Shown here one piece after another: positions 4,340-9,866 of a stretch of 40,857 nucleotides of DNA. The notes beneath the pieces were generated by a model. That model ran no database searches. It saw only the letters and a list, made by a program, of their open reading frames with translations, and was not told the origin of the DNA. Location of the stretch: positions 32,231 to 73,087 of the forward strand of contig JAHECS010000008.1 of the NCBI GenBank assembly GCA_024641635.1. Reading direction: 5' to 3'. A program made the translations under genes and the position numbers. This DNA is from Actinomycetes bacterium (GTDB taxonomy: Bacteria; Actinomycetota; Actinomycetes; S36-B12). The stretch's first letter is position 1. Every line of letters starts with the position of its first letter.

Positions 4340-5350
4340 ATGACCATTCGCGTGGGTGTGATCGGCGCCGGCAACATCGGCACGTCGCACGCCCGGAATC
4401 TTGCCTCCCTGGTGTCGGGCTCGACAGTGACGACGCTCTACGACTTCGATGGCGTGCGCGCTGCAGAGGTTGCAGCTGAGCTCGGGGCGGTGGCAGTGCC
4501 GACGTATGCGGAGCTCATCGCCTCGGATGATGTCGACGCGGTGCTGATCGCGTCACCCGACCCATTTCATGCGGAGCAGGCCCTCGCGTGCCTGGCGGCG
4601 GGAAAGCCCGCGCTGTGCGAGAAGCCGCTGTCGCCGGACGAGGCGGACGCGAAGGCCGTGGTCGACGCGGAGGTGGCGCTGGGACGGCGCCTGATCATGA
4701 TGGGGTTCATGCGCCGGTTCGACCCCGGCTACCTGGAGCTCAAGGGCCTCATCGGCCCTGCGGGAATCGGCGATCCCCTCATCGTCCGCAACTGCCACCG
4801 CAATGAAGTGGCGCCCTATGGCCTGGACAGTGCCCTGAGCATCACCAATGCGGCGATCCACGAGATCGACATCAACCGGTGGCTGGTCGGGGAGGAGTAC
4901 GCCTGGGTGGAGGTGCTCACCGGTCGGTCAGGGCCGCTGACCCCGTCCGGGCAGCATGACCCGTTGTTCATCCTCATGCAGACGACGGGCGGGGTGATCG
5001 TCGAGGTCGAGATGTTCGTCCAGTCGCAGCTGGGCTACGAGGTGACCTGCCACGTCACTGGGGGTCTCGGTGTGGCCGAGATGGGTGACGGCTCGTATGT
5101 CACGACCGCGAAGGCGCTGCACCGGGGACACGATCTTCCCCCGCAGTGGCTCAGCCGGTTCCAGGACGCCTATCGAAATCAGCTGCAGGGGTGGATCACC
5201 CATCTGGACACGGGGTCGCCGATGGCCGGTGCGAGTACCTGGGACGGGTACGTGGGCTCGATCGTGGCCAACCGCGCGGTGGAATCCCTCCGCTCGGGCG
5301 CCCGGGTGGCGATCGAGCTTCCTGAGCGCCCGGCCCTCTACGCTCCCTGA
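4340..5350 (+). CDS. Gfo/Idh/MocA oxidoreductase, inositol 2-dehydrogenase-like
   Basis: The 336-residue NAD(P)-dependent sugar or cyclitol dehydrogenase begins with the Rossmann motif GVIGAGNIG (residues 6-14). It has the family EKP motif at residues 94-96, whose lysine is catalytic, and an AIHEIDINRWLVGEE segment around residues 172-186 carrying the conserved Asp/His pair. MGFMRRFDPGYLELK, followed by a CHRN segment, strongly resembles actinobacterial myo-/scyllo-inositol 2-dehydrogenases (IolG). IolG oxidises the C2 hydroxyl of inositol to an inosose. ATG 4340 fits the Rossmann start, and the longer upstream frame is overlap with the divergent AroE-like gene. No strong Shine-Dalgarno sequence is visible. 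The neighbouring ribose-type importer and LacI gene support uptake and oxidation of a cyclitol or sugar. No iolB, iolC, iolD or iolE is present here. Confidence 0.85.
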   Translation: MTIRVGVIGAGNIGTSHARNLASLVSGSTVTTLYDFDGVRAAEVAAELGAVAVPTYAELIASDDVDAVLIASPDPFHAEQALACLAAGKPALCEKPLSPDEADAKAVVDAEVALGRRLIMMGFMRRFDPGYLELKGLIGPAGIGDPLIVRNCHRNEVAPYGLDSALSITNAAIHEIDINRWLVGEEYAWVEVLTGRSGPLTPSGQHDPLFILMQTTGGVIVEVEMFVQSQLGYEVTCHVTGGLGVAEMGDGSYVTTAKALHRGHDLPPQWLSRFQDAYRNQLQGWITHLDTGSPMAGASTWDGYVGSIVANRAVESLRSGARVAIELPERPALYAP

Positions 5351-5414: not shown

Positions 5415-6224
5415 CTAGGTCACCGGGGTGAGCTGCTGCTCCTCCACCGGCACCGTCATGGCGCCAGTCATGATGGCCACCACGTCGTTCATCGAGTGCG
5501 ACTGGGGGGTGACGACCGCTGCGCGCTTGCCAAGCCGTGCGACGTGGATGCGGTTGGCCACCTCGAACACCTGGGGCATGTTGTGCGAGATGAGGATGAC
5601 GGGCATCCCTCGCTCGCGGAGGTCCTGGATCATCTTCAGGACGCGAGCCGACTCGTTGACCCCGAGCGCCGCGGTCGGCTCGTCGAGGATGATGACTTCG
5701 CTGCCGAAGGCCGCGGCCCGTGCCACGGCGACGGCCTGACGCTGGCCGCCAGAGAGTGTTTCTACCGCCTGCGTGATGTTCTGCAGGGTGCTGATGCCCA
5801 GGTTCTTCAGGTGGGCGCTGGCCTCCTGACGCATCGCCTTCTTGTCGAGCATCCGGAAGACTGAGCCGACGAAGCCGGCCTTGCGCAGTTCTCGACCGAG
5901 GTAGAGGTTGCTGGCGATGTCAAGGGCGGGTGCGACGGCGAGCGTCTGGAAGACGGTCTCGACGCCTCCTTCGCGAGCCTCGTGCGTGCTCTTGAACTCG
6001 ACCTTCTTGCCGTTCAGGTACATCTCGCCGCGATCGGGGGTGTGCGCCCCGGAGAAGCACTTGATCAGGCTCGACTTCCCAGCGCCGTTGTCGCCGACAA
6101 CGGCGAGTACTTCGCCGGGGAACAGCTCAAGGTCGGCGCCGTTGAGGGCGACGACCCGGCCGAAGGTCTTGACGAGGTTGACGCCCTGGATGACCGGGGT
6201 GACGGTTGCGGTGGGCGCAGTCAT
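5415..6224 (-). CDS. Sugar ABC transporter ATP-binding protein (single nucleotide-binding domain)
   Basis: The 269-residue cytoplasmic ATPase powers the importer encoded just upstream. Walker A GDNGAGKSS is at residues 44-52, the Q-loop glutamine at about 93, signature LSGGQ at 157-161, Walker B EVIILDEP at 176-183, and the switch histidine in LISHN at about 214. RbsA-type ATPases of ribose-family importers are usually about 500 residues with two ATPase halves. This one has a single half, as in the FrcA-type minority, so it probably acts as a homodimer. ATG 6224 overlaps the permease stop by 4 nt (ATGA), which favours it over the start seven codons upstream. It is the last gene of the SBP-permease-ATPase operon. 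Confidence 0.93.
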   Translation of the reverse strand: MTAPTATVTPVIQGVNLVKTFGRVVALNGADLELFPGEVLAVVGDNGAGKSSLIKCFSGAHTPDRGEMYLNGKKVEFKSTHEAREGGVETVFQTLAVAPALDIASNLYLGRELRKAGFVGSVFRMLDKKAMRQEASAHLKNLGISTLQNITQAVETLSGGQRQAVAVARAAAFGSEVIILDEPTAALGVNESARVLKMIQDLRERGMPVILISHNMPQVFEVANRIHVARLGKRAAVVTPQSHSMNDVVAIMTGAMTVPVEEQQLTPVT

Positions 6225-7276
6225 GCTTTCACCTTCCTGATCCATTGGTCGATGGCGACTGCCGCGATGACGAGGATGCCGATCGCGAGAACCCGGTAGG
6301 CCTGATCGAGTCCCGCGAGAGACAAGCCGTTCTGCACGACGGTGATGATGAGGGCACCGATCAAGGTGCCGATGAGGGTGCCGCGACCGCCGAAGAGGGA
6401 CGTGCCACCGATCACGACGGCGGTGATCGTGTCGAGGTTCAGGAGTGGATCGGGGTTGGGGCTGGCCGAGCCGACGCGGCCGATGGTCACCCAGGCTGCG
6501 ATCCCGATCACCAGTCCGGCGACGACGTAGACGCTGAAGATGACGCGCTTGGTGGAGATACCGGAGAGCTCGGCGGCGTTGGGGTCATCGCCCACGGCGT
6601 AGATGTGCAGTCCCCACGCCGTGTTCCGGAGGATGTATCCGAAGATCGCGTACATGACCAGCATGAGGATGACGCCGTAGAGCAGCTGGAAGTCCCCGAT
6701 CTTGAACGTGTTCCCCAGCCACTTCATCTGGTCGGGCATTTCGGCGTTCTGAATGGTTCGGGCCTTGAAGAAGATCAACGTCAGGGCCGTGAAGATCGAC
6801 AGAGTGCCGAGCGTGACGATGAAGGGTGGCAGGTTGAATCGAACGATGAGGAAGCCGTTGAGTGCACCGGAGGCGACGCCGGCGAGGATTCCGACGGTGA
6901 TGGCGAGATAGGGGTTCTGGCCGGCGACAGGGAGGATGTTCGACGCTGTCGCGAACACGGCCAGGTTGGCCATGGTCATCTGCGCGAAGGTCATGACCGC
7001 GCCGATGCTGAGATCGATTCCGGCGGTCAGGATGATGAGGGTCTGAGCGATAGCCAGAGTCCCGACGACCACCGTCTGCTGGGTCACGAACGAGAGGTTC
7101 TGTGGAAGCAGGAATCGACTGTTCAGCAGGTAGAAGATGATGACTGCGACCAGCAGGACGATCAGCGGACTCAGGTACGGATACTTGTGAAGCACGCCCT
7201 GGATTCGCTGCAGGGTTGTACGACGTTCCATGAATTCATCGGCCAGGTCCGCAGGCCCCGCGGATGCACTGCTCAC
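6221..7276 (-). CDS. Ribose/inositol-type ABC transporter permease (RbsC family)
   Basis: The 351-residue polytopic membrane protein has about eight to ten hydrophobic segments. The family-typical AGIDLSIGAVM segment, the NGFLIVRFNLPPFIVTLGTL region and the GGTSLFGGRGTLIGTLIGAL stretch identify the BPD_transp_2 fold of sugar importers. It would form the membrane channel for the solute delivered by the lipoprotein encoded upstream. GTG 7276 is preceded by GGGAGG with 8-nt spacing. It follows the binding-protein gene after 117 bp that contain a strong hairpin, and it is translationally coupled to the ATPase. The substrate is probably a monosaccharide or inositol, judged from context. Confidence 0.93.
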   Translation of the reverse strand: MSSASAGPADLADEFMERRTTLQRIQGVLHKYPYLSPLIVLLVAVIIFYLLNSRFLLPQNLSFVTQQTVVVGTLAIAQTLIILTAGIDLSIGAVMTFAQMTMANLAVFATASNILPVAGQNPYLAITVGILAGVASGALNGFLIVRFNLPPFIVTLGTLSIFTALTLIFFKARTIQNAEMPDQMKWLGNTFKIGDFQLLYGVILMLVMYAIFGYILRNTAWGLHIYAVGDDPNAAELSGISTKRVIFSVYVVAGLVIGIAAWVTIGRVGSASPNPDPLLNLDTITAVVIGGTSLFGGRGTLIGTLIGALIITVVQNGLSLAGLDQAYRVLAIGILVIAAVAIDQWIRKVKA

Positions 7277-7393: not shown

Positions 7394-8563
7394 TTAGCCC
7401 CAGGCGTTGTCGATGCAGTACTGCGCCGACTCCTGCGGAGCGGCGGTCACCGTGTCCTGCGGATCCTCGGTGCAGAGGGTCACGCCGGTGTCGAAGAACT
7501 GGCCGTTGGCCGAGGTGTTCTCCGGGGCCGCGCCGCCATCAGCGATCGTCTTGATCGCCTCGACGCCGAGGGAAGCCATCCGCAGCGGGTACTGCTGCGA
7601 CGTGGCCTGAATCTGACCAGCCTGCACGCCCTGGACGCCGGCGAGACCGCCGTCGACCGACACGACATAGACGTCCGTGCCGATGGTCTTGCCGGCAGCC
7701 TCGAGGGCCGAGATGGCACCGAAGGCGGTGGGCTCATTGATCGTGTAGACGACATTGATGTCGGGGTTCTTGGCGAGACAGTTCTCCATGCCAGTCTTGC
7801 CGCCGGCCTCGTTGGCGCCAGTCGCCTCGAGGCAAACGATCTCGTAGTCGCCGCCCGCGCCGGTGCTGTAGGTGCCGGTCGCAGCCGGGCTGCTCATGTC
7901 CTCGAGGGTCGGGACGTCGATGCCCATGCCCTGGAGGAAGCCGTTGGCGCGGCAGTAGTCCACGGACACGACGCGATCGTTGAAGATGACCAGCTCAGCG
8001 ATGGTGGCCTTCTCGCCGCCCAGCTTGCCTGCCGCCCACTGGCCGATGGCCTCGCCGGCCAGGCAGTTGTCCGTCGCGAAGGTGATGTCGACGACGTCCG
8101 GCGGATCGGTCGGGGTGTCGAGTGCGATGACGTAGAGGCCGGCCTCGCGAGCCTTCGCGATGGAGTCGTTGACGTTGACGGACATCGGAGTGATGAGGAT
8201 GCCGGCCTGACCCTGTGCGATCGCGTTCTCGATGAGTTCGATCTGGCCTGCGTCGTCGCCCTCTTCCTTGCCAGAGCCGACGGTGAGGTCGACGCCATTG
8301 GCGTCGGCCGCCTCCTTCGCGCCCTTCTGCATGGCCACGAAGAACGGGTTGGTCGAGTCCTTGGTGATGAGCGAGACGGCAACGGCGCCGCCCTCTGGGG
8401 CCGCCTCGGACGCTGCGGGGGCCTCGGACGCTGCCGGAGCCTCGGAAGCCGCGGACGACTCCTCAGACGACGTGCCCGAACTGCAGGCCGCGAGCGTGAC
8501 GGATGCGACCCCGGCCACCGCAATAGCGGTGAGGGTTCGACCGCGTGTCAAGCGGTTGATCAT
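7394..8563 (-). CDS. Sugar ABC transporter substrate-binding lipoprotein (Peripla_BP_4)
   Basis: The 389-residue protein begins with a lipoprotein signal peptide: a basic start, a hydrophobic core, and the lipobox LAAC with Cys27. A low-complexity Ser/Ala/Glu/Pro linker follows at about residues 28-58. The mature domain has the type I periplasmic binding fold of ribose and inositol binders (ISLITKDSTNPFF-like opening, ALDTPTDPP, and SVDGG near the C-terminal hinge). It should be anchored outside the membrane and pass solute to the permease. ATG 8563 was chosen because it starts the signal peptide and follows AAGGGA. It is the first gene of the importer operon, under the operator-containing promoter at 8755-8783 with a leader of roughly 185 nt. 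The ligand is not determined by sequence. Confidence 0.93.
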   Translation of the reverse strand: MINRLTRGRTLTAIAVAGVASVTLAACSSGTSSEESSAASEAPAASEAPAASEAAPEGGAVAVSLITKDSTNPFFVAMQKGAKEAADANGVDLTVGSGKEEGDDAGQIELIENAIAQGQAGILITPMSVNVNDSIAKAREAGLYVIALDTPTDPPDVVDITFATDNCLAGEAIGQWAAGKLGGEKATIAELVIFNDRVVSVDYCRANGFLQGMGIDVPTLEDMSSPAATGTYSTGAGGDYEIVCLEATGANEAGGKTGMENCLAKNPDINVVYTINEPTAFGAISALEAAGKTIGTDVYVVSVDGGLAGVQGVQAGQIQATSQQYPLRMASLGVEAIKTIADGGAAPENTSANGQFFDTGVTLCTEDPQDTVTAAPQESAQYCIDNAWG

Positions 8564-8738
8564 TTGGTGTCCCTTCGAAGGGTGGGTGGGTGGCGGCCCG
8601 AGGGCCACCGGTCATGTCTATTCCTGCGGCCGCCGCTCGGGCTACCGGGAGACGGCCTTGATACCGAACCGTTACGGTCGCAAGACCCCAACGGCGACTT
8701 ACGCCGTCGTCAGGGCGACGGCCTTTGCGCACCGCCCT

Positions 8739-8750
8739 GACAACGTTGTC
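8739..8750. promoter_or_regulatory. LacI-family operator, copy 1
   Basis: GACAACGTTGTC is a perfect 12-bp palindrome with the central CG typical of LacI/PurR operators. It covers the predicted transcription start of the importer operon and lies 64 bp from the divergent lacI-type gene. Confidence 0.7.
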
Positions 8751-8754
8751 TCCG

Positions 8755-8783
8755 TTTCTAGTGGCGCCGGGTCTTACCGTCAA
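8755..8783 (-). promoter_or_regulatory. Sigma-70-like promoter of the sugar importer operon
   Basis: Reading the minus strand, TTGACG (8783-8778) and TAGAAA (8760-8755) are separated by exactly 17 bp. The predicted start falls near 8748, inside the palindromic operator at 8739-8750, so regulator binding should block initiation. Confidence 0.65.
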
Positions 8784-8795
8784 GAGCAAATGCTG

Positions 8796-8802
8796 TAATA
8801 CT
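8796..8802 (+). promoter_or_regulatory. Putative -10 element of the lacI-type gene
   Basis: TAATACT follows a TG dinucleotide, as in an extended -10 element. Initiation would fall near 8808, leaving a leader of only about 5 nt before ATG 8814. No good -35 hexamer is seen. Confidence 0.45.
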
Positions 8803-8813
8803 CCCGCTTCGTA

Positions 8814-9866
8814 ATGACAACGTTATCTAGCCCGTTCGACGCCGGAGGCGGAGCGCGTTCCCGCGCCACCATGCGGGACGTCGCCTCGCTCGCCGGAGTG
8901 AGCCTCAAGACGGTCTCCCGGGTGATCAATCGTGAGCCCGGGGTGAGCGAGGAGCTCGCGGCACGGGTCACCCGCGCCGCGGACCAGCTCGACTACCGCC
9001 CGAACCTGACCGCCAGCAACCTGCGCCGGGCAGACCAGCGGACCTCCACGATCGGGCTGCTCATCGAGGACGTCGCCAACCCCTTCTTCGCCGACATCCA
9101 GAGGGGCGTCGAGGATGTGGCACGCCGTCGAGGCGTGGCCGTGATGGCGGCGAGTCTGGATCGGGCACCCGAAACCGAGCGCGACCTCGTGTCGGCCTTC
9201 GCGTCGCGTCGGGTCGACGGACTGATCCTGGGACCGACGGCTCGGGAGCAGGGGTATCTCGCGACGGAACTGCGCAGCGGGTGGCCGATCGTGTGCATCG
9301 ACCGCCAGCCCCGCGGCGTCGAGGTGGATTCCGTCGTCACGAACAACCGTGAGGCGACGGCGCAGGGAGTCGAGCACCTTGTCGCCCGCGGTCACCGCAG
9401 GATCGCGTTCATCGGTGGCAACTCGGGACTGTCGACCGCGCACGAGCGGCATGCCGGCTACCTCGACGCCATGGCCGCAGCGGGGGCAGCGGTGCGACCC
9501 GAGTGGGTCACGTTCGACGCCCTGTCGACAGAGGACGGGATGGACGTCACCCGGGCGATGCTGGCACTCGAGGATCGGCCGACGGCGTTCTTCACAGCCC
9601 AGAACCTCATCACCATGGGCTCGGTACGGGCGCTGCGGCAGGCCGGCTTGCATCATCGGGTCGCGCTCGTGGGCTACGACGACTTCTCGCTGGCGGACCT
9701 GCTCGAGCCGGCGGTGACCGTGGTGGCCCAGGACTCACGGGAGATGGGACACCTCGCGGCGGAGATCCTGTTCCGGCGCATGGACGATTCGTCTGAGCCG
9801 GTGTCGACTCACGTCATCACGTCGCGGATCATCACTCGCGGATCTGGGGAAATTCCCCCGGAGTGA
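8814..9866 (+). CDS. LacI/PurR-family transcriptional regulator of the importer operon
   Basis: The 350-residue regulator has an N-terminal helix-turn-helix at about residues 20-45 (MRDVASLAGVSLKTVSRVIN), a hinge, and a C-terminal sugar-binding-like domain with IGLLIEDVANPFFADI and the GYDDFSLADLL segment. The family represses until a sugar ligand binds. The divergent importer promoter contains its likely operator. ATG 8814 gives a 19-residue N-terminal extension. It lacks a Shine-Dalgarno sequence but sits just downstream of a -10-like element, so near-leaderless expression is plausible. ATG 8871 also lacks a well-spaced ribosome site. The 3' end overlaps the convergent EamA gene by 35 bp. 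Confidence 0.93.
   Translation: MTTLSSPFDAGGGARSRATMRDVASLAGVSLKTVSRVINREPGVSEELAARVTRAADQLDYRPNLTASNLRRADQRTSTIGLLIEDVANPFFADIQRGVEDVARRRGVAVMAASLDRAPETERDLVSAFASRRVDGLILGPTAREQGYLATELRSGWPIVCIDRQPRGVEVDSVVTNNREATAQGVEHLVARGHRRIAFIGGNSGLSTAHERHAGYLDAMAAAGAAVRPEWVTFDALSTEDGMDVTRAMLALEDRPTAFFTAQNLITMGSVRALRQAGLHHRVALVGYDDFSLADLLEPAVTVVAQDSREMGHLAAEILFRRMDDSSEPVSTHVITSRIITRGSGEIPPE
8816..8827. promoter_or_regulatory. LacI-family operator, copy 2 (inside the lacI-type start)
   Basis: GACAACGTTATC matches copy 1 at 11 of 12 positions and lies 77 bp from it, centre to centre. It overlaps codons 1-5 of the regulator gene, which suggests autorepression. Confidence 0.62.

Follow-up and report, generated by a model that had tools for sequence, protein, structure and literature searches.

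The locus studied here raises the question of whether two short palindromes at the junction of a LacI-family gene and an RbsB/C/A-type importer oriented divergently from it are operators of that regulator and, if so, what circuit they form and which ligand it answers to. In the window, by which we mean the whole stretch of 40,857 nucleotides that was analysed, the elements at the centre of this question are as follows.

8739..8750, no strand: operator O1, GACAACGTTGTC, a perfect palindrome (12/12) over the predicted importer start (P1); exact in 30/32 orthologue loci, with GACAACGGTGTC in the remaining 2
8816..8827, no strand: operator O2, GACAACGTTATC, an 11/12 palindrome over regulator codons 1-5
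8814..9866, plus strand: LacI-family regulator, 350 aa, whose start codon overlaps O2

The initial annotation had described two matched LacI-type sites with a centre spacing of 77 bp, the second being an 11/12 copy on the first codons of the regulator. All of this is borne out: a 12/12 and an 11/12 site are found at the positions above, their coordinates reproduce the 77 bp, and O2 overlaps the ATG (8814-8816) of the open reading frame 8814-9866. Counting matches within the window adds little. With up to 2 mismatches the palindrome has 5 matches there against 1.64 expected, and since 1 of 100 shuffles reaches 5, the raw count is weak evidence when taken alone. What decides for operators is their conservation at the 32 orthologue loci.

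That conservation was assessed in a set of 79 related genomes, 32 of which hold an orthologue of the regulator (a near full-length match of 46-100% identity); matches at 40% identity or below were counted as paralogues, and G004, which has a truncated regulator, was placed among the 47 genomes without an orthologue. The motif TGACAACGTTRTC occurs in 37 of the 79 genomes, namely 32/32 with the orthologue and 5/47 without it (Fisher p=3e-17, where shared ancestry among the genomes means that Fisher values overstate independence), and the backward control pattern occurs in 9 (1/32 and 8/47). The initial annotation had let its call depend on the palindromes persisting in orthologous intergenic regions; their absence did not occur, as the motif stands at the regulator locus itself in all 32 orthologue genomes. 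Among the five motif genomes without an orthologue, the match lies inside called open reading frames in four (G041, G043, G048 and G078) and near a contig end in G068. The palindrome alone (GACAACGTTGTC) gives 30/32 and 7/47. Exact O1/O2 pairs are found in 26 of the 32 orthologue loci, with O1 reading GACAACGGTGTC in two of the 26, and 24 of these have their sites 75-80 bp apart, the other two being spaced 87 and 103 bp. The second site is GACAACGTTATC in 24 pairs and GACAACGTTGTC in 2; it is missing in exact form from six loci, where O1 is the only exact site. When the 24 pair loci that remain without those spaced 87 and 103 bp were aligned, majority identity was 0.993 in O1, 1.000 in O2, 0.60 between them, and 0.39 and 0.51 outside; these loci were picked for having the pair, so that the identity of O1 and O2 is partly selection, and the unbiased figure is 26/32.

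Genomes that lack parts of the locus suggest what the operators follow. In both G036 and G040 the binding-protein gene is present and the regulator orthologue and the motif are both absent. The G036 contig carries PPGK and EamA alongside the binding protein, and neither permease nor ATPase was detected on it; on the G040 contig PPGK is accompanied by the complete importer (binding protein, permease and ATPase), with EamA and the regulator missing. Because these two genomes keep the binding protein without the regulator and without the motif, we read the operators as tracking the regulator, not the importer. Synteny argues that both genomes lost a regulator rather than never having had one, and GACAACATATC near the binding-protein start of G036 might be a decayed operator. 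In G004, only regulator residues 143-349 are left, and importer and motif are absent.

The regulator itself has the makeup of a LacI-family protein. It carries a LacI helix-turn-helix domain (HTH; PF00356, 65.8 bits) together with a periplasmic-binding-protein-like domain (PF13377, 112.5 bits), both over cut-off. A TVSR recognition helix, which marks a major subgroup, and a palindromic operator with a central CG are LacI-family features described in PMC2978694 and PMC4052901, and both are found here: the recognition helix reads [LFIV]KTVSRV in 32/32 orthologues, and the palindrome has the central CG. A shared recognition helix is consistent with one common operator. The chain ends in a short tail, RGSGEI or similar in most orthologues, at window positions ~9830-9866.

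From these sequences we infer that the regulator is a dimer that binds and represses, as well as what induces it and precisely where transcription starts, and we propose, with a probability of about 0.85, a local and autoregulated LacI-family repressor circuit. A dimer of the regulator would bind O1, covering the P1 start and blocking the importer promoter, and a dimer would separately bind O2, covering the beginning of the regulator gene with its initial codons and blocking its own promoter. A small ligand taken up by the importer (most likely an inositol or one of its close derivatives) would release the dimer and turn both promoters on. The ~77 bp between the operators would be set by the back-to-back promoters that lie between them.

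This scheme recalls several known systems. With the LacI regulons covered in the accessible part of Ravcheev et al. 2014 (PMC4052901), where autoregulation is given for 72% of the LacI-family regulators studied, it shares the even palindrome, the central CG, the local target and the predicted autoregulation. The regulator with its exact 12-bp operator was not found in that part of PMC4052901, and a literature search for the 12-mer GACAACGTTGTC gave unrelated work only. RbsR ribose circuits are alike in that no NCBIfam profiles match the regulator better than those of RbsR and the importer belongs to the same transporter class; however, the score of 201 bits is far below the cut-offs of 531 and 382, and the ATPase has one domain in 276 aa against a profile length of 501. 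IpsA of Corynebacteriales (PMC3899939) is likewise of the LacI type, actinobacterial and free of a tetramer tail. Inositol as effector is shown for IpsA and proposed for the present regulator; whereas IpsA is an activator of ino1 and also targets genes of the cell wall, the present regulator is predicted to repress the importer and itself. The kind of circuit is a textbook one, and we regard this regulator-operator pair as a further, well-supported example. An uncultured actinobacterial lineage, in which the named close relatives are environmental assemblies, would gain from it a specific operator-regulator pair, and the circuit points to a candidate inositol importer in that lineage.

The promoters on which the circuit is proposed to act were read as follows.

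8778..8783, minus strand: -35 element TTGACG of importer promoter P1, by direct reading; its CAA columns are kept in at least 80% of the 24 aligned loci
8755..8760, minus strand: -10 element TAGAAA of P1, after a 17-bp spacer; a conserved TTTCTA block in the aligned loci
8794..8802, plus strand: extended -10 element TGT-AATACT of the proposed regulator promoter; consensus cTgcaATacT in the 24-locus alignment

TTGACG-17-TAGAAA is thus present as the initial annotation had claimed, with a predicted start about 7 nt on, near 8748 and inside O1. A scan for consensus promoters reported nothing in this region at its threshold, TAGAAA failing the rule of a T at position 6, and the call of the P1 -10 and -35 elements therefore rests on the columns conserved in relatives. 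On the other strand, the conserved TGnNATACT ends 11 nt before the regulator ATG. Since this predicted extended -10 lies so close to the start codon, the transcript of the regulator may have almost no leader. The description of promoter and circuit as "complete" stands for P1 as read; P1 may not be all, as a GlnR/MtrA-like box (12/27 leaders) and a candidate second promoter, both taken up below, also precede the importer.

Which ligand the circuit would answer to depends on the importer and its neighbours.

7394..8563, minus strand: importer substrate-binding protein, RbsB-like, Peripla_BP_4, by domain match
6221..7276, minus strand: importer permease, BPD_transp_2, by domain match
5415..6245, minus strand: importer ABC ATPase of 276 aa, containing one nucleotide-binding domain, by domain match
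4340..5350, plus strand: convergent Gfo/Idh/MocA dehydrogenase, inositol-dehydrogenase-like, below family cut-offs

Compared with solved structures, the binding protein has generic ribose- or allose-type proteins as its best matches, which are indecisive for the substrate. A relative of the dehydrogenase (at least 49% identity) lies beside the importer in 11 regulator loci, including that of the window. A pointer comes from iolD, which was scored by cut-off only, as weaker profile matches occur in every genome and in 14/14 controls, and which is over cut-off in 33/79 genomes. Within family f1, iolD is found in 26/26 genomes with the regulator-importer pair (24 over cut-off, 2 as fragments) and in 6/21 others (5 over cut-off, 1 as a fragment), an association of p=7e-8, or 2e-6 on the cut-off alone, with counts inflated by shared ancestry. 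In five genomes (G019, G030, G031, G037 and G038) iolD is on the same contig as the regulator, 2-12 kb away; IolG is over cut-off ~1-6 kb from the importer in G019 (L108), G037 (L127) and G038 (L125), and iolB is over cut-off near the importer in G037. In the iolD cluster of the source genome, on contig C63, no transporter was seen among the scanned genes, the gene calls there being incomplete. Two points speak against inositol: the dehydrogenase scores 277 against 540 bits and 172 against 355 at the inositol-dehydrogenase cut-offs, and the 5 f1 genomes just mentioned have iolD over cut-off without the pair. Furthermore, because the iolD clusters of several genomes, the source genome included, carry a LacI paralogue of their own, the inducer here may differ from myo-inositol itself. 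On balance we lean, with some reserve, towards inositol or a close relative as both cargo and inducer. The initial annotation had named myo-inositol among the sugars that might release the regulator, and the iolD and IolG associations speak for it indirectly.

The inducer could instead be a hexose or a ketose of the fructose kind, a reading that we consider unlikely, though with enough behind it to deserve a hearing. The rhizobial fructose importer FrcBCA has a single-domain ATPase, as does the window importer, and synteny near the window locus includes a gene resembling polyphosphate glucokinase, which scores below cut-off. A regulator subclade also bears on this reading. Five genomes (G020, G046, G064, G072 and G076; loci L102-L106) form one clade of the regulator tree, from which G031 is omitted (contig end), with a support of 0.997; they keep the O1/O2 pair, but the importer opposite the regulator has another binding protein. 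In three of the five (G064, G072 and G076; L102-L104) a PfkB kinase gene follows the regulator. In G049, whose binding protein is 58% identical, such a kinase follows the importer ATPase. The two of these kinases that were scanned, those of G064 and G049, match fructokinase best, below cut-off, and none of these six genomes has iolD over cut-off. However, the kinase is tied to the subclade facing a different importer and to the outlier G049, and the window-type pair co-occurs with iolD in every f1 genome that has it, as described above. For the window importer, inositol or a close relative is thus still the ligand that we prefer.

The initial annotation had also suggested that the 77-bp spacing would allow looping. 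In such a loop a tetramer would bridge O1 and O2 in the manner of E. coli LacI. The two strong sites and the 75-80 bp spacing in 24 of the 26 exact-pair loci would suit such a loop, yet we consider it highly improbable. According to PMC3899939, tetramerisation of LacI lies in residues 340-357, and the LacI-type IpsA, which is without these, is a dimer. The alignment of the present regulator to LacI stops at residue 306, its chain ends 29 residues later, ahead of the tetramerisation region, and no C-terminal tetramerisation segment was found in that alignment; nor was a leucine-repeat tail seen in the orthologues. The spacings also argue against a loop, as the 75-80 bp range covers about half a helical turn, the 87 and 103 bp of the other two loci fit no required phasing, and the six loci without an exact O2 offer no second exact site to be bridged. 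Since the LacI-type tetramer tail is missing, we prefer a model in which each site is bound by its own dimer and the DNA is not looped.

With O2 lying on codons, it is also necessary to ask whether its conservation is that of DNA or of protein. In 21 genomes the ATG overlapping O2 shares its reading frame with the HTH and the intervening stretch is stop-free, at 7 different distances that are all multiples of three. Four genomes have the overlapping ATG in another frame, and one has no such ATG; the same 12 bp are found in all five. O2 as a by-product of protein conservation was rejected on this ground, and because the site is identical whether it lies over the first codons or in a non-coding leader, we take O2 to be conserved as a DNA operator. 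That the fixed off-palindrome A of O2 weakens this site is our guess. The further LacI paralogues of the source genome (33-34% identity to the regulator) might lend themselves to a reading in which the palindromes belong to another regulator and O2 conservation merely reflects the first codons of the protein, but this is hardly credible when O2 is equally kept where it is non-coding and the sites are missing from genomes that retain the binding-protein gene but not the regulator.

A local autoregulated circuit should leave few sites elsewhere, and the source genome (G000; 3.06 Mb, 82 contigs) fits this expectation: the strict form GACAACGTTRTC occurs in 3 places, 2 of them at the O1/O2 locus, that is, at the regulator's own promoter and the adjacent operon. 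The genome scan that the initial annotation had proposed, looking upstream of sugar or cyclitol genes, did yield one further strict site only, C63:36079 (L003 1501-1512), but this is flanked by the end of typA on one side and an OppC-like gene on the other and is not beside an evident sugar gene. Loose matching is unspecific in this genome: allowing up to 2 mismatches gives 299 places per strand, where the backward control pattern gives 29. Besides O2 there are 11 one-mismatch places, 9 of them inside open reading frames of at least 150 aa and 2 outside; none was accepted as a target. As such sites exist elsewhere, a wider regulon through weaker one-mismatch sites is possible. Additional exact 12-mers turned up in just four of the 32 genomes with an orthologue, namely G000, G013, G031 and G038. 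The G013 site reads like coding sequence and was rejected as a regulon member. G031 and G038 share an exact palindrome away from the regulator (L137 2244 and L138 2065); the whole shared stretch is 87% identical throughout, so that selection on the site cannot be judged and it was set aside as uninformative for the regulon.

The importer leader contains two further elements.

8660..8675, minus strand: GlnR/MtrA-like box GTAACGGTTCGGTATC, in the importer leader; the only GTAAC-N6-GTATC in the genome
8615..8620, minus strand: possible -10 element TAGACA, 57 nt ahead of the start codon, belonging to P2, a candidate second promoter of the importer

Leaders were taken from 27 genomes, with G008, G049 and the five other-importer genomes left out, and 16 of the 27 were aligned (omitted were G015, G027 and G044 of g3, the short G021, G024 and G042, G025 and G036, and G019, G030 and G037 of g7). 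A GlnR/MtrA-type box, of the GTNAC-N6-GTNAC type, is found in 12/27 leaders, 109-126 nt before the start codon. Eleven of the 12 also carry O1, and the twelfth is that of G040, from which O1 and the regulator are both missing. GTAAC-N6-GTATC fits actinomycete GlnR boxes listed in PMC10704036, according to which GlnR controls carbohydrate ABC importers. The leader box also resembles the MtrA consensus GTAACC-N5-GTAACC given in PMC12323332, and MtrA is present in the source genome with a profile score over cut-off. A TAGACA-like -10 element lies 55-70 nt before the start in 14/16 aligned leaders and is absent in the boxed G012 and G040. It is possibly a second importer promoter, P2, and this candidate could bypass O1.

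These elements allow a broader proposal, which we put forward only tentatively because we judge it somewhat less probable than its opposite as a whole. In it, the operator code would have been kept while the cargo changed (a subclade importer without iolD over cut-off, and in three of five genomes with a sugar kinase beside the regulator, as against the window type with inositol catabolism), the importer would be under double control (a LacI-type regulator at P1, a GlnR/MtrA-type response regulator at P2), and the fixed base of O2 (24/26) would be tuned for weaker self-repression. Two importers under one conserved operator would then be a natural case of cargo exchange without a change of the DNA code.

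Some features of the leader may be recorded on their own account. No Rfam family reaches its gathering score in 8400-8900. Over the importer ribosome site, CCCTTCGAAGGG at window positions 8571-8582 is near-invariant in the 16 aligned leaders, and a paired stretch immediately upstream of it may be a leader hairpin. The leader from P1 (8560-8745, minus strand) folds better than shuffles (z=-3.2), and its long stem adjoins O1.
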